Part shown: positions 13,092 through 22,658 of the stretch, piece by piece | Layout of the letters: every line of letters begins with the position of its first letter | Position numbering within the stretch: the first letter of the stretch is position 1 | NCBI RefSeq assembly: GCF_013358405.1 | Contig: NZ_CP054836.1 | Span: 124,001 to 188,000 of the forward strand | Reading direction: 5' to 3' | DNA: 64,000 nucleotides | Source: Oricola thermophila | Lineage (GTDB): Bacteria > Pseudomonadota > Alphaproteobacteria > Rhizobiales > Rhizobiaceae | Position numbers and translations under genes: made by a program | The notes under the pieces: generated by a model | Seen by the model: the letters and a program-made list of their open reading frames with translations, nothing else | Told to the model about the DNA's origin: nothing | Database searches by the model: none

Positions 13092-13204
13092 GACATTAGA
13101 TCTTTCTATCTGTTGATGTCGTGGTCCGGCGCATGGCCGCTTGCGCCGGGAGGGGTTATGTCATCCAAATCTGGATAGCGAAAGGCAAGCCGGAAACACA
13201 TCCG

Positions 13205-13819
13205 ATGGCGAAGCTCTATTTCCACTACGCGACAATGAACGCCGGCAAGTCGACCATGTTGTTGCAGGCGTCGTACAACTACCGCGAGCGCGGAATGCAT
13301 ACCTTGCTCTTCGTTGCCGGCCATTACCGCAAGGAGGAGGATCTCGGCTACATTTCCTCTCGCGTGGGGCTGGAATCGGATGCCGAGATGTTTCGTTCGG
13401 GCGACGATCTGTTCGAGCGGATCCGCGAGCACCACCAGTCGAAGACGACGCACTGTGTCTTCGTCGACGAGGCGCAATTCCTCGAGGAAGAGCAGGTCTG
13501 GCAACTGGCACGTGTCGCCGACCGTCTCGGCATTCCTGTCATGTGCTACGGACTCCGGACGGATTTCCAAGGCAATCTCTTTTCCGGGTCCCGGGCATTG
13601 CTGGCAATCGCCGACGAACTGCGCGAGGTTCGAACGATCTGCCGGTGCGGGCGCAAGGCCACAATGGTCGTTCGCCTGGGGCCGGACGGCAAGGTTGCCA
13701 AGGACGGCGACCAGGTGGTGATCGGCAAGGATGCCTATGTGTCGCTGTGCCGTCGTCACTGGGAAGAGGAGATGGGGCACATTCCGGCCGAAGACATGAT
13801 CGGTTTTTCCAAGCCCTGA
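13205..13819 (+). CDS. tdk: thymidine kinase
   Basis: A 204-residue type II thymidine kinase that phosphorylates thymidine for salvage. The P-loop is in YATMNAGKSTMLLQ (near residue 10) and the Walker B/catalytic motif is VFVDEAQFLEEEQVW. The zinc-binding ligands are in the paired ICRCGRKA and SLCRRHW, as in the E. coli enzyme. ATG at 13205 gives the canonical MAKLYF start; the frame is open back to 13121 without family similarity. Confidence 0.96.
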   Translation: MAKLYFHYATMNAGKSTMLLQASYNYRERGMHTLLFVAGHYRKEEDLGYISSRVGLESDAEMFRSGDDLFERIREHHQSKTTHCVFVDEAQFLEEEQVWQLARVADRLGIPVMCYGLRTDFQGNLFSGSRALLAIADELREVRTICRCGRKATMVVRLGPDGKVAKDGDQVVIGKDAYVSLCRRHWEEEMGHIPAEDMIGFSKP

Positions 13820-13919
13820 CCTCGTCCCGCTTGAAACTTCCAGAGTCGGTCGCCACAGTCTATACCCGTATGACCTGAGGGAATCCGGCCGAACCGGCCG
13901 GGAAACGGAGACCGTGTAC

Positions 13920-15008
13920 ATGGCGACCTTGCAGAATTTTGATGCCGAGATCGAGAAGACCAAGCAGGTCGTCGAGGACATGCGCTCCAAGATCGAACAG
14001 TCGGGCGTTGTGCTCGACAAGTTCGCGAAGGCCGACAAGGCCATAGGCGACGCCGAATTCGATATCGAGAATGCCCGCATCCAGGACGTGCTGAAGCAGC
14101 AGAAGGTCATGGAGGCGAACATTGCCGACCTGATCATCGGCCTGGAGGACGCCACCAACGTATTCGGGACCGAATTCGAATCGATGAAATCCTATACCGG
14201 CTTCGAAAAGCTGGTCGGCCTGTTTTCCAAGCAGCGCATGCAGCGGATGCGTTCGGAACGCGTGCGCAACATGTCATTGGCCGGAAACCTGCAGGAACTG
14301 CTCGCGAAATCGGACACCATCGTCGGCATACTGACAGATCAGAAGAACATCCTCGATACCCGGTATGCCACGTCGGAGGACAGCCTCAGGACTGTCATCG
14401 AACGTCGCAAGAAGACCATGGAAGAACTCGAGACGACACAGAAACGGATTGAGGAACTGAATCCGCTGTTGCTCGATCTCGAAAACCGAATTGCGGCAAC
14501 GACCAACCAGAAGGACCGGACGGAACTGGAAGGCGAACGCTCGAAGCTGGCAACCGAGTACAACGAGAAGCAGGCGCTGGAGCAGACGTTGCTGGCAGAG
14601 AGCCAGACACTTGAACGCTATACCTCGATGTTCCAGACCTTTGTCGATTCCCTGAACAACCAGATCGCGGCCCAGCAGACGCTGATCAACAAGCTGACCA
14701 TCGATACCGAACAACGCATCGTCCTCTACAAGGCGCTGGAAGACTCGCTGAAGACGGCGGCGCAGCAGGATGTCGCGCACAAGATCAACACGCTTGGCAG
14801 CCAGGTCGATACCGCGGCCGAAACGACGATGGCCGGCATCGGCGCCGCGGCACAGAAGCATATCGGCGACCTGCTCGAGATGCACGAGAAGAACATGGTC
14901 GCGACGCAGGACATCCAGAGGCGCAAGAAGCTGGCCGACGACGCATTCGCCCGTCGCTTCGACGATGTCATGAAGAAGCACAACGCCGCGGACTATGTGC
15001 GCCAGTAG
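13920..15008 (+). CDS. coiled-coil protein, first gene of the five-gene AAA+ operon
   Basis: 362 residues with no signal peptide or membrane helix. Long amphipathic helices and heptads occupy about residues 5-75 and 130-250, with a more globular helical stretch between (FGTEFESMKSYTGFEKLVGLFSKQ) and a charged C-terminal tail. ATG at 13920 has GGAG 9 bases upstream; GTG at 13914 is possible. I do not recognise a characterised family; a remote similarity to PspA-like or TelA-like helical proteins is conceivable but untested. Its stop is 33 bases before the next gene, all in the same direction. The abundance of coiled coil and lack of catalytic motifs suggest a structural or adaptor role for the downstream ATPase. 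Confidence 0.8.
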   Translation: MATLQNFDAEIEKTKQVVEDMRSKIEQSGVVLDKFAKADKAIGDAEFDIENARIQDVLKQQKVMEANIADLIIGLEDATNVFGTEFESMKSYTGFEKLVGLFSKQRMQRMRSERVRNMSLAGNLQELLAKSDTIVGILTDQKNILDTRYATSEDSLRTVIERRKKTMEELETTQKRIEELNPLLLDLENRIAATTNQKDRTELEGERSKLATEYNEKQALEQTLLAESQTLERYTSMFQTFVDSLNNQIAAQQTLINKLTIDTEQRIVLYKALEDSLKTAAQQDVAHKINTLGSQVDTAAETTMAGIGAAAQKHIGDLLEMHEKNMVATQDIQRRKKLADDAFARRFDDVMKKHNAADYVRQ

Positions 15009-15041
15009 GGGCACGAGTTTGCCGCGGGAGGCATTCGAACC

Positions 15042-16196
15042 GTGAAAGCGCAACGATCCGCGTCGACGCCGGTCGACCGCTATTTCGCCTCCATCGGGGC
15101 GGCACTGGACGGGCTCGGCGTATTCCTGCGTGACGATTCTTCGCCGCTCTACAAGCACGGCCTCATCGCGAGAATCGTGACGGAATACGTCCAGCGACTG
15201 GCCACATCCTTCGACTGTTGGCAGCATCATCTCGACTACGCGAAATCCTTTCGGATCTCGCGCGCGGAAAGCGGGTTCCCGGTGTTCCAGAACGTGTTGG
15301 AGCTGGAGAACGACCGACGCACGGCCAAGGCGCGGCTCGGCGAGATTGCGGATCCCGCCACGCTGCGTGAAGAGATGGCGGACTTCATCCTGCGTCACAA
15401 GGCGTTTCCCGCGGAGTTGCAGCAATTGATGGCCGAGCGGCTCTACCTGGAAAAGGTCCAGGAGGGACACGTCTTCTCGCCGCTGGTGTTGCCGGAAACG
15501 GTGAAGGTCTCAGTCAATCCGAAGACAATGCGGCCATACTATCTCGTCCACTGGGGCGCTTTCGACGGCACGTCGAACCTTCCGCTGGTCTACAGCGTCA
15601 TGGTCGAGGATTCTTCCACCGACCTGGTGAAACTTCTGGTCACGAAGGATGGCAAGCTCGATAGCTCGGTAGACATACCGCTTCCCGTAGGCGGGCTGCT
15701 CAACCCGGAGCTGGCGCGCGAGTTCGATGCCTTCGTGGAACGCAATTCCGCCTATTCGCTTTCGCCGTCGACAATCGCCACCAATCTGGACACGGATTTC
15801 GACGTGCTGCACCCGAAGCAGTTGCGGCGCATCGTGCTCGGGCCCTTCTACTCGGCCGGCATCACAGCGCACAACCAGCGGGTCAATCACATCCTCGAAC
15901 AGGTTGCAGACCCGTTGAACGCCTGGCTGCTGACATGGACGATACAGGACGTCTATTCAAAGGCCGAGAAGCCGGCGCGCAAGGGGCTGTGGTCATCGGA
16001 ACCGGCGCGGGAAGAGTTCCACATAGAGACGAGCGATCTCGAAGCTGCGCGGATGGGCGTATCTGCATACGAGAAGCACGCCCTGATTCCGCATGAGGCG
16101 TACCAGGCGCTCTATGCAGCAGGGGAGACCGAGAGCGTCTTCAAGGGCTACCAGACGCATATCATTTCAGGCGGGCAGGTGATTACCGATGTGTGA
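15042..16196 (+). CDS. uncharacterised protein, second gene of the five-gene AAA+ operon
   Basis: 384 residues from a GTG start with GGGAGG about 9 bases upstream. It is soluble by composition: no signal peptide and no membrane helix. The N-terminal part (1-150) is helical; the middle (about 160-260) has beta-rich stretches such as MRPYYLVHWGAFDGTSNLPLVYSVMVEDSS, and the C-terminal part is mixed. No catalytic motif known to me is visible. It lies between a coiled-coil gene and an AAA+ ATPase with 33- and 36-base gaps, so co-transcription is likely. Function unknown. Confidence 0.78.
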   Translation: MKAQRSASTPVDRYFASIGAALDGLGVFLRDDSSPLYKHGLIARIVTEYVQRLATSFDCWQHHLDYAKSFRISRAESGFPVFQNVLELENDRRTAKARLGEIADPATLREEMADFILRHKAFPAELQQLMAERLYLEKVQEGHVFSPLVLPETVKVSVNPKTMRPYYLVHWGAFDGTSNLPLVYSVMVEDSSTDLVKLLVTKDGKLDSSVDIPLPVGGLLNPELAREFDAFVERNSAYSLSPSTIATNLDTDFDVLHPKQLRRIVLGPFYSAGITAHNQRVNHILEQVADPLNAWLLTWTIQDVYSKAEKPARKGLWSSEPAREEFHIETSDLEAARMGVSAYEKHALIPHEAYQALYAAGETESVFKGYQTHIISGGQVITDV

Positions 16197-16232
16197 CCGC
16201 AGCATGTCCGGAAAGCGAGCGGGAGAACCGGA

Positions 16233-18146
16233 ATGGATATCGGCCTGACGCGGATCGACGAGGACGACATTGCGAAACATCGCGCGGTCGCGCAGTCGTT
16301 CGTCACGCGCATCGTCGTGATGGAGGAGAGCGGAGGCAAGTCCGACACGGCGCTTGCGGGAACCGGTCGGCGTTTCGTCTCCACGGTTTCCACCGGTGGC
16401 GTGCGGCGCACCCGCGAGGTGGAACTGGCCAGGCAGATCGCCGGGGTCAGGCCCGATGATCCGATGTTGTCGCCGGTGCAGCACGGCCTGCTCTACCGGA
16501 CGCGACGCGGTATCGCGATCGCGCTTGCAGTCGCGGAGCTGTTCGCACGCCAGACGGAGCTGGAAAGCCTGCAGGCGCGCAACCTGTCGTCTCCGCTGCA
16601 GGGCGATGACGCGGAGCGGTTCAAGACGCTGGTCAATGCCTCGGCCTATATCGCGGCCTTCACGCTTTCGGCCTATCTCCTGCAGATGCTCGACGGAGGC
16701 ACGGAGCCGGTCAACGATCCCGACGAGCCGGACTTCCTGTTCGACACGGCCCAGGATGCGCTGAAGTCGCTGGTCGCGGGACTGGCCAACGCCATCGACG
16801 GCGCGGCTGACGAGATGACCATGCTGCAGCGGGCGAAGGCATTTGCGCGGGTCTCCGTCGACGGACTGCTCGGACGGCGCGGTCGCTTCACCGGACTCGG
16901 TTCATTCGAGGACAGCCATATACGCATCGAGGCGGACGATTTCACCATCAACGGGTTCGACGTGGCGCCCGGCCAGCGCCGCAAGCCGCTGGCGATGCAG
17001 TTCAAGAAGCCGAACGAGATCATCGGCAACCATATTGCCAAATACCAGGCGACGCGGCTGGCCAAGATGCTGATGGCCTATGATTTCGAGCGGCAGCTCA
17101 ATCCCTTCGTGGAACTGGGCGGTTTCCTGTTCACCTTCATCGGTGACGGCGCGCCGGGAACCGGCAAGACTATCCTGATCCAGATGATCGCCGGGCTGAT
17201 CAACGACTACTGCGAGGTTGCGGGCTATCCCTTCCACTACGAGAATTTCGGCGTCGACCAGATCTCGTCCTACCAGGGCAAGTCGGGCCAGAACTGCAAG
17301 GAGTTCGTCAACACGATCGTCAACCCGAAGGCGATCGGTTTCGGCACGATCGACGATATCGACCAGGTCGCGGCGCGTCGCTCAGACGACCGGGCCTCGG
17401 CCGGGCAGCACGAAGTGACCGCGGTGCTGATGGAAAGCTTTGCCGGCGCGACAACAGTGGTGCGCGGCAACTGCTCCTTCGGCATGTTTTCCAACTACCC
17501 CGAGAACGTCGACGATGCGTTGCGCCAGCGGGCTGGCGCGCGCTGGCTGGTGGACGGGCCGCAGACGCTTGACGACTATATCGACATCTTCGTGCTGCTG
17601 GCCGGCAAGAACCATTCTATCCCGCTCGGCGATCACGACCTCTACGCGGCGCAGGTCATCAAGAAGGCGGTGGCGGAAGCCTATGAAGGCCATGACAGGC
17701 CAAAGGAGGAGGGGCTTCTGGCCGTCTACGAGCGCTTCATGGAGGAGCGCGGCGAACCGAAGACGATGGCCGATGTTGGCGACTACCTGCATCGCATCAA
17801 GCAGGCCGAGCCGCGCTTTACCGGCCGCGCGATCAAGAACATCACCGACGCGATCAAGATGCGGGCGATGGATTTCGACCTGCCGGACGAGTGGTTCGAG
17901 ACGCCGGAGGCATTCATGCACAAGTCCTACGACGAGAAGAAGGCGATGATCGAGGAACTGCGCGGCCCGTTCACGATGAAGATGGTCATGCAGGAGATCA
18001 ACCGCTACGCCGATTCCGAGTTCCGCTACACCGACAAGTCGGACGCGGCGGCCGTAGAGGCCATGATCCGTAATGAACGGCTGCGCGAGCGCGCAGCAAG
18101 GGAGATCGCGGACCTGAAGTCCAAGGGGCTGTGGAACGGCGCATGA
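16233..18146 (+). CDS. AAA+ ATPase, central gene of the five-gene operon
   Basis: 637 residues. An N-terminal helical region of about 280 residues precedes one AAA+ module. Walker A is GAPGTGKT (about 306-313), Walker B-like IGFGTIDDIDQ has D374-D375, and NVDDALRQRAGARWLV resembles the sensor/arginine-finger region of AAA proteins (D-A-L-R-Q-R). A C-terminal helical domain of about 130 residues follows. No protease, nuclease or membrane part is visible, so it is probably a remodelling ATPase acting on a partner protein. It is not MoxR-like. The next gene starts within its stop codon (ATGA), a sign of coupled translation. The substrate and process are unknown. Confidence 0.85.
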   Translation: MDIGLTRIDEDDIAKHRAVAQSFVTRIVVMEESGGKSDTALAGTGRRFVSTVSTGGVRRTREVELARQIAGVRPDDPMLSPVQHGLLYRTRRGIAIALAVAELFARQTELESLQARNLSSPLQGDDAERFKTLVNASAYIAAFTLSAYLLQMLDGGTEPVNDPDEPDFLFDTAQDALKSLVAGLANAIDGAADEMTMLQRAKAFARVSVDGLLGRRGRFTGLGSFEDSHIRIEADDFTINGFDVAPGQRRKPLAMQFKKPNEIIGNHIAKYQATRLAKMLMAYDFERQLNPFVELGGFLFTFIGDGAPGTGKTILIQMIAGLINDYCEVAGYPFHYENFGVDQISSYQGKSGQNCKEFVNTIVNPKAIGFGTIDDIDQVAARRSDDRASAGQHEVTAVLMESFAGATTVVRGNCSFGMFSNYPENVDDALRQRAGARWLVDGPQTLDDYIDIFVLLAGKNHSIPLGDHDLYAAQVIKKAVAEAYEGHDRPKEEGLLAVYERFMEERGEPKTMADVGDYLHRIKQAEPRFTGRAIKNITDAIKMRAMDFDLPDEWFETPEAFMHKSYDEKKAMIEELRGPFTMKMVMQEINRYADSEFRYTDKSDAAAVEAMIRNERLRERAAREIADLKSKGLWNGA

Positions 18147-19423
18147 AACGCCTCTACGACAACGACCTGATCTATGGCCGGCTGCTGAAAGTCAGCCAGC
18201 CGCACCTGATCGAGCGCTACAACAAGGCGTTGAAGGCGTTCGGCCTGCCGGAGACGAAGCTGGAGGTCTTCGACATCGACAAGACCGGTTTCTCGCCGCA
18301 GGTGGCAGACGAGCTGGGCGATCCGGACTACCTCGATCCGAACGGGATCAACCGGCGTTTCATCATCCTGACGCCGTCGCAATCGACGTTTCCGGTGGTG
18401 CATACGCATTTTTCCAACACCGAAGCGCTGATATACGAGTTCTTCACCGCGAACGCCCGTGCGATCAATGCGCTGACGATCAAGGACGTGATCTATGGCG
18501 AGATCGACGACAATGTCTCGCGGGTCAACGACATCGAGGACCTGCTGGGAATCGAGCAGGTCGAGTTCAACGTCCTGTCGGCCGACGACGTGCTCGGCAA
18601 GGCTGCAGAGCTGCGCACGCTGGTGGACCGGCTGAAAGGCGAGCCGGACGCCTGGCGCAACGACGCCATGCTGGAACGCATGGTCGAACTGGCGAGGATC
18701 GCCGGCGACATACGCGAAAACACGCTGGTGCCCGACCAGGTCGTGTTCCGGCACGACGCCTTCTGGACCAGCCATTTCGGTGGCTGCTACGTCTTCGTCG
18801 ACGAGAAGATGACGACGGTGATCGCCGATCCGTCGGCGCCGGGCTTCCGCCGCTCCCGGCCGTGGCAGGTCGCCTATATTCCGATCCGGGACATGGCGCG
18901 GGTCCATGCCTTTCTGGCCGATACCGGCCGGCTCGACCCGCCGCGCGCCTCTTGGCTGGAACCGTCGGGTTTTCTCGAGCACCGTGCCGAGATGGCGATA
19001 CGCGCGCTGTTGCGAAGGGCGGAGCCGGATGCCGACCTTGGGCGGATGGACGCGGTCTGGCTGCAGACGTGGATGCACAGAAATGCCGGGCTCATCAACG
19101 AGGATGGCGTCTATCCCTTCCTGAATGCGGTCAAACGCGACATTGCGCGGTCCGGTCATGTCGACATCCGAGATGTCGACAACCGATTCCGGTTTCTGCT
19201 GGCACGCGCGAAACCCGACCACAAGGACGCCTGGCTGGTGAACCGCCTTGTCACCGAATATGTCCCGAGCGACTTCGTTGCGCGTTATGTTTTCAACAAG
19301 CAGGGCTTCTACAAGGACTACGAAAGTTACGGTGATGCCTTCCGCCAGCACGTTGTGGAGATGCTGAAGACCACCTATCTGTCCGACAAGGCCGCGTTCC
19401 GCAAGCGGCTCTACGGCCTTTGA
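18143..19423 (+). CDS. uncharacterised protein, fourth gene of the five-gene operon (possibly DUF6638)
   Basis: 426 residues, soluble, start ATG at 18143 overlapping the AAA+ stop by 4 bases. Visible stretches include LYDNDLIYGRLLKVSQPHLIERYN at the N-terminus, then PSQSTFPVVHTHFSNTEALIYEFF, HFGGCYVFVDEKM and a helical C-terminus ending KAAFRKRLYGL. I know no catalytic motif in it; I recall similar proteins labelled DUF6638, but that name is from memory only. The 4-base overlap with the ATPase suggests stoichiometric production and direct partnership. Confidence 0.8.
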   Translation: MKRLYDNDLIYGRLLKVSQPHLIERYNKALKAFGLPETKLEVFDIDKTGFSPQVADELGDPDYLDPNGINRRFIILTPSQSTFPVVHTHFSNTEALIYEFFTANARAINALTIKDVIYGEIDDNVSRVNDIEDLLGIEQVEFNVLSADDVLGKAAELRTLVDRLKGEPDAWRNDAMLERMVELARIAGDIRENTLVPDQVVFRHDAFWTSHFGGCYVFVDEKMTTVIADPSAPGFRRSRPWQVAYIPIRDMARVHAFLADTGRLDPPRASWLEPSGFLEHRAEMAIRALLRRAEPDADLGRMDAVWLQTWMHRNAGLINEDGVYPFLNAVKRDIARSGHVDIRDVDNRFRFLLARAKPDHKDAWLVNRLVTEYVPSDFVARYVFNKQGFYKDYESYGDAFRQHVVEMLKTTYLSDKAAFRKRLYGL

Positions 19424-19441
19424 CCCTTCCGGAGCGACACC

Positions 19442-20545
19442 ATGCTTGACCCGATCATCGCCTTTTTCACCCGCCTCTTCGAGGTCATCGGCCGGGCGAT
19501 CGGCACATTCGTGGCGTGGCTGGCGTGGCCGTTCATCGCGTTCAGGAACTGGCTGCGCGGGCGCGGCTGGTTCGTGAAGATCCCGGTCTTCGTCATACTG
19601 ATCGCGATTGTCGCATCCTATGGCTATCTAATCTACATCACCCAGTTCTGGTCGATCGGCGATCCCGACTATCCGGAGCGCTATGCGTTCGAGACGGAAT
19701 ACGGAGCGGCGGGATCGCAGGCCGGCGACGGTGCCTGCTATCCGTCCGCGATGGTACAGGTGGCTGCGGACCTCATAGACAAGAACGTCAATCAGGAATA
19801 CTGGGTTCCCTCGAACCCGCTGTCGAAGGCCGGGTTCCTGTTCATCATCGACTGGAAGGATACCCCGTTCTTCGACAACAAGGCCGCGTTCCAGCTTGGC
19901 ATCAACCAGGCCGTCCGCAGAACGGCCGTCGAGCTGGTCGACCGGCTCGGACGCGTGCGCGGGACGTCTTCGATAAATCAGAATCTCCAGGATGCGCGCG
20001 AAGCCGCCAACTACCGGGAAGATGCCTGGTTCTTCACGCTGAGCCCGCCCTTCCTGCAGCCGTCGACACAGGCGCGGCTGCGCGATGCCCGCGACAGCCT
20101 GTTGGCGTTCAATCTGGAACTGCAGGAATGTCGGGCCGACTTCGATGCCCGCGCCGACAACCTGATGCAGTTCTTCGATCGTGTAACGGCCGATATCGGC
20201 TCGACCTCGGAAATTCTTCAGCGCCGGATGGAGCAGAGCAATTTCATGGGGTTCGACAGGCGCGCCGACGACCGGTTCTGGTTCACCTTCGGGCAGCTCT
20301 ACGGCTATTACGGCATTCTCTCTGCGGCGCGCAGCGATTTCCGCGAGGTCGTCGCGCAGCGGAACCTGGACGCGATATGGGATCGGGTCGACGAGCAGAT
20401 GCAGGACGCGTTGAACATGCGCCCGCCCTTCGTAGCCAACGGCAGCGCATCGAGTCTCATAAAGTCGCACCTGGAATCGATCGGTTTCGACCTTCTTCGT
20501 GTTCGCTCGAACCTAGTGGAAATGCGTGACGTGCTCGAGCGCTAG
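19442..20545 (+). CDS. DUF2333 family membrane-anchored protein, last gene of the five-gene operon
   Basis: 367 residues. One strong transmembrane helix lies at about 44-66 (WFVKIPVFVILIAIVASYGYLIYI) after an amphipathic N-terminus (LDPIIAFFTRLFEVIG). The rest (about 300 residues) should face the periplasm and matches the DUF2333 pattern, for example DLIDKNVNQEYWVPSNPLS and a GxFIIDWKDTPFFDNKAAFQLG-like block. A GGAG lies 7 bases before the ATG. As the only membrane member it probably anchors the operon's soluble proteins and ATPase to the inner membrane. DUF2333 has no established function. Confidence 0.85.
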   Translation: MLDPIIAFFTRLFEVIGRAIGTFVAWLAWPFIAFRNWLRGRGWFVKIPVFVILIAIVASYGYLIYITQFWSIGDPDYPERYAFETEYGAAGSQAGDGACYPSAMVQVAADLIDKNVNQEYWVPSNPLSKAGFLFIIDWKDTPFFDNKAAFQLGINQAVRRTAVELVDRLGRVRGTSSINQNLQDAREAANYREDAWFFTLSPPFLQPSTQARLRDARDSLLAFNLELQECRADFDARADNLMQFFDRVTADIGSTSEILQRRMEQSNFMGFDRRADDRFWFTFGQLYGYYGILSAARSDFREVVAQRNLDAIWDRVDEQMQDALNMRPPFVANGSASSLIKSHLESIGFDLLRVRSNLVEMRDVLER

Positions 20546-20978: not shown

Positions 20979-22658
20979 ATGGCCGAATTCAAGACAGACA
21001 TCGAAATTGCGCGTGCGGCAAACAAGAAGCCCATCCAGGATATCGGCGCAAAGCTCGGAATACCCTCCGAACATCTTCTGCCCTACGGGCACGACAAGGC
21101 GAAGGTATCGGCCGATTTCATCAAGTCGTTGCGGGACCGCCCTGAAGGCAAGCTGGTCCTCGTCACGGCCATCAACCCGACGCCAGCGGGCGAGGGCAAG
21201 ACAACAACAACAGTCGGGCTCGGCGACGGGCTGAACCGCATTGGGAAGAAAGCGGCGATCTGCATCCGCGAGGCTTCGCTCGGACCGAATTTCGGCATGA
21301 AGGGCGGCGCGGCAGGAGGCGGCCATGCGCAGGTGGTGCCGATGGAGGACATGAACCTCCATTTCACCGGGGACTTCCACGCCATCACCTCGGCGCACAA
21401 CCTGCTTTCGGCGATGATCGACAATCACATCTACTGGGGCAACGAGCTCGGGATCGACGAGCGGCGCGTGACCTGGCGGCGCGTGATGGACATGAACGAC
21501 CGCGCGCTGCGCGACATCGTCGTGTCGCTCGGCGGCGTCGCCAACGGCTTTCCGCGCCAGACCGGCTTCGACATCACGGTGGCTTCCGAGGTGATGGCGA
21601 TCCTGTGTCTCGCGAAGGACCTGGATGACCTGCAGAAGCGACTGGGCGACATCGTCGTCGCCTATCGTCGCGACAAGTCGCCGGTCTACTGCCGGGACAT
21701 CAAGGCCGACGGGGCGATGACCGTCCTGCTGAAGGACGCGATGCAGCCGAACCTGGTACAGACTCTCGAAAACAACCCGGCCTTCGTGCATGGCGGGCCG
21801 TTCGCCAATATCGCGCATGGCTGCAACTCGGTGATCGCGACGACGACCGCGCTGAAGCTCGCGGACTACGTCGTCACCGAGGCGGGCTTCGGCGCCGATC
21901 TCGGCGCGGAGAAGTTCTTCGACATCAAGTGCCGCAAGGCCGGGCTCAAGCCGGCGGCGGCCGTGATCGTCGCGACGGTGCGCGCGATGAAGATGAATGG
22001 CGGCGTCAAGAAGGAAGACCTCGGCAGCGAGAATGTCGAGGCGGTGAAGAAGGGCTGCCCCAATCTCGGGCGCCACATCGCCAACACCAAGGGCTTCGGC
22101 GTGCCGGTCGTGGTGGCGATCAACCATTTCGTCTCCGACACGGAAGCCGAGATCCAGGCGGTCAAGGACTATGTCGCGGAGCAGGGCGCCGAGGCGATCG
22201 TGTGCAGGCACTGGGCGGACGGCTCCGCCGGCATCGAGGACCTGGCGCGCAAGGTCGTCGAGATGGCGGAAAGCGACGCGTCGAACTTCTCGCCGCTCTA
22301 CCCGGACGACATGCCCCTGTTCCAGAAGATCGAGACCATCGCCAAGCGGATCTACCATGCCGACGAGGTCATCGCGGACAAGAGCGTGCGCGCGCAGCTG
22401 AGGCAGTGGGAGGAGGCCGGCTACGGACATCTGCCGGTGTGCATGGCGAAAACGCAGTACTCGTTCTCGACCGACCCGAACCTGCGCGGCGCGCCGACGG
22501 GCCACTCGGTGCCGGTGCGCGAGGTGCGGCTGTCGGCTGGCGCCGGTTTCATCGTGGCGATCTGCGGCGAGATCATGACCATGCCCGGCCTGCCGCGCAA
22601 GCCTTCCGCCGAGGTGATCGGGCTCAACGACGAGGGAAATGTCGAGGGACTGTTCTGA
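20979..22658 (+). CDS. fhs: formate-tetrahydrofolate ligase
   Basis: A 559-residue enzyme that joins formate to tetrahydrofolate with ATP, making 10-formyl-THF for one-carbon metabolism. The ATP-binding P-loop is [14 protein letters not shown] near residue 68-81, followed by [23 protein letters not shown], and the C-terminal region carries [13 protein letters not shown] and [15 protein letters not shown], all family hallmarks. Full normal length. ATG at 20979 follows a strong GGAGGAGATC. Transcribed alone; a GC-rich hairpin follows its stop. Confidence 0.98.

Follow-up and report, generated by a model that had tools for sequence, protein, structure and literature searches.

The stretch analysed here, called the window throughout, comprises 64,000 nucleotides of Oricola thermophila DNA (NZ_CP054836.1, positions 124,001 to 188,000) and is part of a single-contig 4.0-Mb genome. 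Between positions 13920 and 20545 it carries five same-strand genes, g1 to g5, separated by 33, 36, -4 and 18 bases, which specify a coiled-coil protein (g1), a protein outside the Pfam families (g2), an AAA ATPase (g3), a DUF6638 protein (g4) and a DUF2333 membrane protein (g5). An earlier note made from the sequence alone, referred to here as the original prediction, had proposed them as an undescribed five-gene AAA+ system, and the gene coordinates bear out the lengths and spacings that it gave. We find that the locus belongs to a real, modular AAA+ system which is undescribed in the papers found. A search of open-licence papers in PMC found none for DUF6638, PF20343, PF10095, PF07509 or COG5345, and neither the one paper naming DUF2333 nor any of the four naming DUF1523 bears a title on this system, in agreement with the earlier statement that the genes have no described function.

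A scan of genome contigs with the ATPase resulted in 116 relatives; we retained the 80 best, which at 65-92% identity are close kin only. All five genes occur in one order and on one strand in 75 of the 80 fetched loci, and the other five (L031, L042, L059, L060 and L081) end at contig ends; that the genes lie side by side is not a matter of chance. Shortened genes are present in three of the 75 complete loci: g2 in L011, DUF6638 in L061, and DUF2333 in L068, where it reaches the locus end. The median gaps, which rest on estimated start codons, are 29 bases between g1 and g2 (n=78), 4 between g2 and the ATPase gene (n=79) and 7 between g4 and g5 (n=77). The gap between the ATPase gene and DUF6638 has a median of 212 bases (n=78), extends up to 6 kb and is at least 250 bases long in 37 of 78 loci; the order of the core genes outlasts repeated insertions at this point. 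The inserted cargo includes DUF559-type endonucleases (14 loci), Phd/YefM antitoxins (16) and PIN toxins (14), one example of each having been confirmed with Pfam. Elsewhere the cargo at this position is an endonuclease with an insertion sequence, and L014, L019 and L071 are examples of loci with toxin-antitoxin or DUF559 endonuclease genes there.

The association extends well beyond close kin. Among 299 genomes of the phylum DUF6638 is found in 20 and g1 in 24, and a full-length g1 (E below 1e-171) is present in 20 of the 20 DUF6638 genomes (Fisher p 1.5e-27, uncorrected for relatedness). We then selected 41 genomes, namely these 20, genome G490 and 20 non-bearers from the same family and order; among them the ATPase and g2 each occur in 21 of 21 DUF6638 bearers and in 0 of the 20 others. 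Nine of the 14 same-family genomes in the larger sample carry the module, and the order g1-g2-AAA-DUF6638 is held in all 11 loci outside the window's own family. Genome G262 is from the same order as the window. For G050 the closest named homologues are Halomonas-like and the remaining close ones with names are of the Roseobacter type, from which we infer a Roseobacter-type identity for the nine f16 genomes. The four-gene core, its order kept, was also located on two Vibrio megaplasmids (two of the four matching Vibrio records were examined), on the Rhizobium leguminosarum plasmid pRlX5 and in G490. Taken together these comparisons show g1, g2, the ATPase and DUF6638 to be an ordered four-gene unit which, judging from its distribution, is inherited and transferred as a whole. 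The original prediction had asked for synteny and co-occurrence across alphaproteobacteria; adjacency proved to be common rather than rare, and a known function could not be assigned to each gene. Joint inheritance of its five-gene unit therefore stands, with the correction that only four genes make up the core and that the membrane partner beside them can be swapped. Database homologues at E <=0.001 number at least 4054 for the ATPase (part of the candidates having been scored), 3227 for g2 and 4404 for g1, and include proteins of Sinorhizobium meliloti and Phaeobacter inhibens. In the two Vibrio loci (L139 and L142) the core lies directly upstream of mfd, with LysM, SIMPL and DUF3592 genes nearby. 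A further record bearing the locus, L138 (CP090106.1), is labelled S. meliloti plasmid pSymB and is 3.7 Mb long; the replicon label may be wrong.

Features of the AAA+ locus and its neighbours, in window coordinates
Feature	Position	Strand	Description
g1	13920-15008	+	362 aa; coiled coil; alternative earlier GTG start at 13914
g2	15042-16196	+	384 aa; GTG start; outside Pfam families
g3	16233-18146	+	637 aa; classical AAA ATPase; Pfam AAA, E 2e-10
g4	18143-19423	+	426 aa counted from the ATG overlapping the ATPase stop; DUF6638, E 1.7e-70
g5	19442-20545	+	367 aa; DUF2333 (E 1.2e-16); one membrane helix
Thymidine kinase	13199-13819	+	Upstream neighbour; outside the module
Formate-tetrahydrofolate ligase	20979-22658	+	Downstream; read from the sequence and from annotated Sinorhizobium/Rhizobium loci; outside the module

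Thymidine kinase is the upstream neighbour in 60 of the 80 close loci and in 0 of the 11 outside the family. The closest named relatives of the window ATPase are from Oricola, together with one Ahrensia-labelled assembly (87-92% identity), which places the source among the Hyphomicrobiales. A promoter scan of the locus found no sigma-70-like site and a terminator scan gave predicted terminators at chance level. No kinship among the five proteins was detected in the 10 pairwise profile comparisons (top probability 1.2%).

The identification of g5 as a DUF2333 protein with one membrane helix was correct: it matches PF10095 with 61 bits against a cut-off of 22, the helix is predicted at residues 49-67, and the charges preceding it predict that the large C-terminal part lies outside. 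No membrane helices are predicted in g1, g2, g3 or g4. In all 11 loci outside the family a DUF1523-type gene replaces DUF2333; its product is predicted to have two helices in all but one of the 11 and gave Pfam E values of 6.5e-68 to 2.9e-60 in the three scanned. A small two-helix protein is encoded beside it in 10 of the 11, and no gene beyond these membrane genes is common to most of the 11 loci. G490 at one time appeared to have a core without a membrane partner; this was dropped, as a DUF1523-type gene follows DUF6638 by 16 bases, which with the 11 loci above makes 12 of 12. By these gene assignments the membrane partner swaps with lineage, being DUF2333, or DUF1523 plus the small two-helix protein, or neither, and DUF2333 is a lineage-specific partner outside the universal core. 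Nineteen other DUF2333 loci (L173-L191) have, as named by eye, genes for a universal-stress protein (11), a NifU-like protein (10), murJ (9) and trpS (6). The hcp3 locus of Pseudomonas fluorescens MFE01, according to the published account, includes a duf2333 gene next to one for a putative amidase (PMC5256989).

The motor itself matches the Pfam AAA family (PF00004) with 41.6 bits against a curated cut-off of 21.2. Pfam assigns it one AAA domain and a sub-threshold AAA_19 match; residues 1 to about 280 matched no Pfam family. All 96 ATPase relatives possess a Walker A motif (GDGxPGTGKT) and a pore loop of the form [SE]YQGK (SYQGK in the window), which aligns with YLG in AFG2 and with YVG in the i-AAA protease. 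The second region of homology, which carries the arginine fingers and reads SNYPENVDDALRQRAGAR in the window, follows the pattern FSN..E..DDALRQR.xAR in 93 of the 96, and L139, L142 and L192 are off by one or a few residues. Walker A and the arginine-finger region are therefore as intact as the original prediction held them to be. The same was said of Walker B, which is instead DD rather than DE (DDID in the window) in 96 of 96 relatives, 91 by pattern and five by eye, and also in a copy from a putative phage that is described below. This DD aligns to the D-E of the i-AAA protease and AFG2, and the standard catalytic glutamate is missing. A family-wide replacement of E by D suggests slow, tightly controlled or conditional ATP hydrolysis. 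In a single-sequence search the closest solved AAA domains were those of the i-AAA protease, AFG2 and PAN; the AAA profile gave nothing in the PDB at E up to 1e-5.

The two remaining core partners offer fewer leads. Protein g2, for which no Pfam family was matched, consists of N-terminal helices and a C-terminal beta-beta-alpha-alpha-beta-beta domain with a weak resemblance to the T-fold (tunnelling fold). A structure search of BFVD gave nothing at E <=0.001, and absence of the family from that collection excludes nothing. The protein g4 had been regarded as an unknown whose ATG overlaps the ATPase stop; the overlap is real, and the family is identifiable as DUF6638 (PF20343; 238.6 bits against a cut-off of 27, over nearly the full length). 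A DUF6638 profile search of the PDB returned nothing at E up to 5. Both DUF6638 and DUF2333, of which g4 and g5 are members, are Pfam families of unknown function.

Protein g1 has no Pfam family, its best hit being a sub-threshold match at E 0.12, and a profile search of the PDB gave nothing below E 0.4 for either g1 or g2. Its AlphaFold model contains helices at residues 2-37 and 52-117 followed by a long antiparallel hairpin (121-193/197-279). The most telling observations on g1 come from loci that have lost the motor. A reduced locus of Rhizobium-type genomes, found in G043, G107, G253 and G265, all of the window's own family, and on R. leguminosarum plasmid pSK03 (loci L140 and L218-L221), has thymidine kinase adjacent to a diverged g1 and DUF2333; the ATPase, g2 and DUF6638 are missing from the locus and, in the four genomes, missing genome-wide. 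The diverged g1 proteins have lost approximately window residues 273-294 (in G265 approximately 287-300 instead, plus other gaps), a part of g1 that is among its most conserved. For this 22-residue block the pattern [SD]L[KR]TAxQQx[IV]AHx[IL]N occurs in 94 of 95 AAA-bearing loci, the one exception being the phage copy with a single substitution, and in 0 of the 5 AAA-less loci. Because the block is lost where the ATPase is missing, residues 273-294 are the best candidate for, and the likely site of, ATPase docking. The ratio of nonsynonymous to synonymous substitution rates (dN/dS) is 0.16-0.31 for the diverged g1 (six pairs from four loci, G265 excluded; dS is saturated at about 1.2 in the three pairs with the most distant copy) and 0.03-0.13 in 21 pairs of canonical g1. 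By this measure the AAA-less g1 remains under purifying selection, and for that reason g1 and DUF2333 probably have some function even where the AAA motor is absent.

A complete module was also found in a viral record. IMGVR_UViG_3300035698_035310 (L223, 359 kb) carries DUF2333, g1, g2, AAA and DUF6638 in a row at 130603-142513, with an 895-base gap ahead of the ATPase gene (DUF2333, E 7.7e-91 and 304.9 bits; DUF6638, E 5.9e-100; ATPase, 45% identity). Here DUF2333 lies at the 5' end of the core, as against the 3' end in the Hyphomicrobiales loci. The surrounding genes specify two topoisomerase II subunits, homing and HNH endonucleases, a ClpB-like ATPase and DnaJ, and further a cysteinyl-tRNA-synthetase-like protein, a DNA methyltransferase and a weakly matched Rz-like spanin; no structural protein was recognized among the 16 neighbour proteins scanned in the approximately 49 kb fetched. 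On the basis of its presence in IMG/VR and of these neighbours we regard L223 as a putative jumbo phage. It is the sole module-bearing contig in four scans of viral contigs, each limited to a few peptide patterns, of which the scan that used DUF6638 found nothing. Against 50,697 phage records the window ATPase had no match, and the phage ATPase had one partial match of 26% over the AAA stretch. The phage DUF2333 matched two phage records, OQ572412.1 and MT835812.1, one of which is Pseudomonas phage Y11 (44% identity). Another IMG/VR contig (L227, 51 kb) ends at a bacterial g1 with 85% identity and is probably host DNA at a prophage edge.

The module invites comparison with several known systems. 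Like ESCRT-III and Vps4, it couples a classical AAA ATPase having an aromatic pore loop with a neighbouring gene for a helical-hairpin protein, and the conserved C-terminal block of that protein tracks the ATPase; ESCRT-III docks on Vps4 by its C-terminus. Unlike them, it is without Snf7, MIT and Vps4-C domains by Pfam, has the Walker B DD and includes two further universal partners, g2 and DUF6638. The module may work like ESCRT-III/Vps4 (archaeal Cdv, eukaryotic ESCRT), kinship being undetected and membership not claimed. PspA and the phage-shock systems likewise bring together a coiled-coil effector, a membrane partner and a nearby AAA ATPase, as seen in excerpts of a phage-shock-protein review (PMC11237479). 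In those excerpts the AAA protein has two AAA domains, where Pfam matches one in g3, and they cover other AAA-PspA pairings and make no mention of the present module. The original prediction had suggested comparing the coiled coil with PspA and TelA, and no kinship emerged with either: PspA gave no Pfam match in g1 at E up to 1 and an hhalign probability of 4% against 12 sequences from other genomes. The distribution of PspA is independent of the module. In G262 (L111, 6102-7115) PspA and YiaAB-domain genes follow DUF1523 on the same strand, some 730 bases on. We considered the module as a replacement for PspA, the window's own genome being without PspA, and rejected this since genomes bearing the module have PspA about as often as those that do not. 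TelA (PF05816), of the toxic-anion-resistance proteins, is a helical protein; g1, which is predicted to be helical, is of similar length. A motif looked alike by eye, and g1 was accordingly tried as a TelA protein and rejected: Pfam listed no TelA match with E up to 1, and the profile probability was 0.2% with a shallow TelA profile (seven sequences from other genomes, one divergent and trimmed). The window's own genome is without TelA, and G067 has both TelA and the module. AFG2, PAN and the i-AAA protease share with g3 the AAA fold, Walker A, the second region of homology and the pore-loop aromatic; the similarity is limited to the AAA domain (residues ~283-470), in which g3 has the catalytic E replaced by D. 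Judging by locus-tag order, we guess that the S. meliloti gene SMc02733 may be the AAA gene. SMc02733 is reported to contain a ChvI-binding fragment (PMC3687685).

We tentatively favour, at somewhat less than even confidence, an AAA+ remodelling module of four proteins which is usually paired with an inner-membrane protein. The most likely mechanism that we infer is that the module remodels g1, a coiled-coil protein of helical build, at the inner membrane, so that the membrane-linked remodelling machine of the original prediction survives as the best reading. On the membrane g1 would build a scaffold or helical filaments, and the AAA hexamer would dock on block 273-294 of g1. By means of the pore-loop tyrosine the motor would then pull g1 through its pore and thereby dismantle or reset the g1 assembly, the conserved aspartate of Walker B keeping ATP hydrolysis slow and tightly controlled. 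The proteins g2 and DUF6638 could serve as adaptors that load or gate the motor, and through DUF2333 or DUF1523 the machine might be connected with the cell wall and the periplasm. Less likely is a bolder form of the idea, in which the module would be an undescribed, mobile bacterial counterpart of ESCRT-III/Vps4 that a jumbo phage has captured for management of the host envelope while it infects. In this form a dedicated motor with two adaptors of its own would reset the helical g1 scaffold by way of the C-terminal docking block, and exchangeable membrane proteins, DUF2333 or DUF1523, would couple the scaffold to the cell wall.

A number of observations weigh against a remodelling role at the membrane. 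Protein g1 is without a sequence link to Snf7, PspA or TelA; for Snf7 the Pfam scan of g1, within the reach of HMMER, listed nothing at E up to 1. Neither an MIT nor a Vps4-C domain was found in g3 in the Pfam scan. The g1 model is of moderate confidence overall (mean pLDDT, the predicted local distance difference test, 67.5) and low in its C-terminal part (under 50), and its PDB matches are mixed long-helix chains, as expected of long helices, and uninformative. PspA is present in 11 of the 21 module-bearing and 11 of the 20 other genomes of the chosen 41. DUF2333 is a separate widespread protein, found in 64 of 240 genomes of the class (DUF6638 in 4 of 240) and mostly where DUF6638 is not; no core genes were seen within the 7-16 kb read around other DUF2333 genes at the 19 loci examined of the 64 genomes. 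On the two Vibrio megaplasmids and pRlX5 the core was found with neither DUF2333 nor DUF1523 next to it. The dS saturation mentioned above affects the estimate of selection on the AAA-less g1, and the loss of the g1 block may represent one or two events, not five, because the AAA-less loci are related (two genera of the window's own family, labelled g2 and g5, and pSK03).

One alternative is a soluble quality-control unfoldase of the AFG2/PAN/Cdc48 type, with g1, g2 and DUF6638 as substrate adaptors and the membrane gene a mere neighbour: it has in its favour the identity of the closest solved AAA domains, the plasmid-borne cores that stand without either membrane gene, and the ClpB-like and DnaJ genes near the phage copy. 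We consider this unlikely, to about the same degree as the ESCRT-like counterpart. The only additional genes common to most of the 11 outside loci are membrane genes, and hence no dedicated protease is evident; moreover, g1 survives next to DUF2333 in the AAA-less lineages and so is linked with that membrane protein and not with proteolysis. The database names of some g1 relatives (CwlO-like, chromosome segregation ATPase, SMC), the top Foldseek match of its model (an Smc coiled coil, E 0.01) and the weak similarity of g3 to fidgetin-like proteins (E 0.07-0.34) would fit a cytoskeletal or division/chromosome-organising factor, in which an SMC-like or filamentous g1 is set by a katanin- or fidgetin-like motor. 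Coiled-coil matches are non-specific, however, the 362-residue g1 has no SMC head domain and the membrane partners are left unexplained, all of which makes this a distinctly poor prospect.

The occurrence of the module in a putative jumbo phage as well as on megaplasmids and a Rhizobium plasmid, and the toxin-antitoxin and endonuclease genes between AAA and DUF6638 in some loci, would suit a defence, stress or host-takeover island module. This we judge improbable: similarities in PADLOC are weak (ATPase to TRIP13, E 2.4e-4 and 18.6 bits over the AAA domain only; g1 to LmuB, E 0.026), the chromosomal site recurs, with its thymidine kinase, in the majority of close loci, most same-family genomes carry the module, and the inserted cargo changes while the core order is constant. 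We give still less credence to a nucleotide- or pterin-sensing machine, in which the T-fold of g2 would bind a ligand, the locus lying by thymidine kinase and formate-tetrahydrofolate ligase.

If the module is truly an envelope-remodelling motor, it would represent an overlooked part of alphaproteobacterial envelope biology, and the phage copy raises the question of what a giant phage gains from carrying it.

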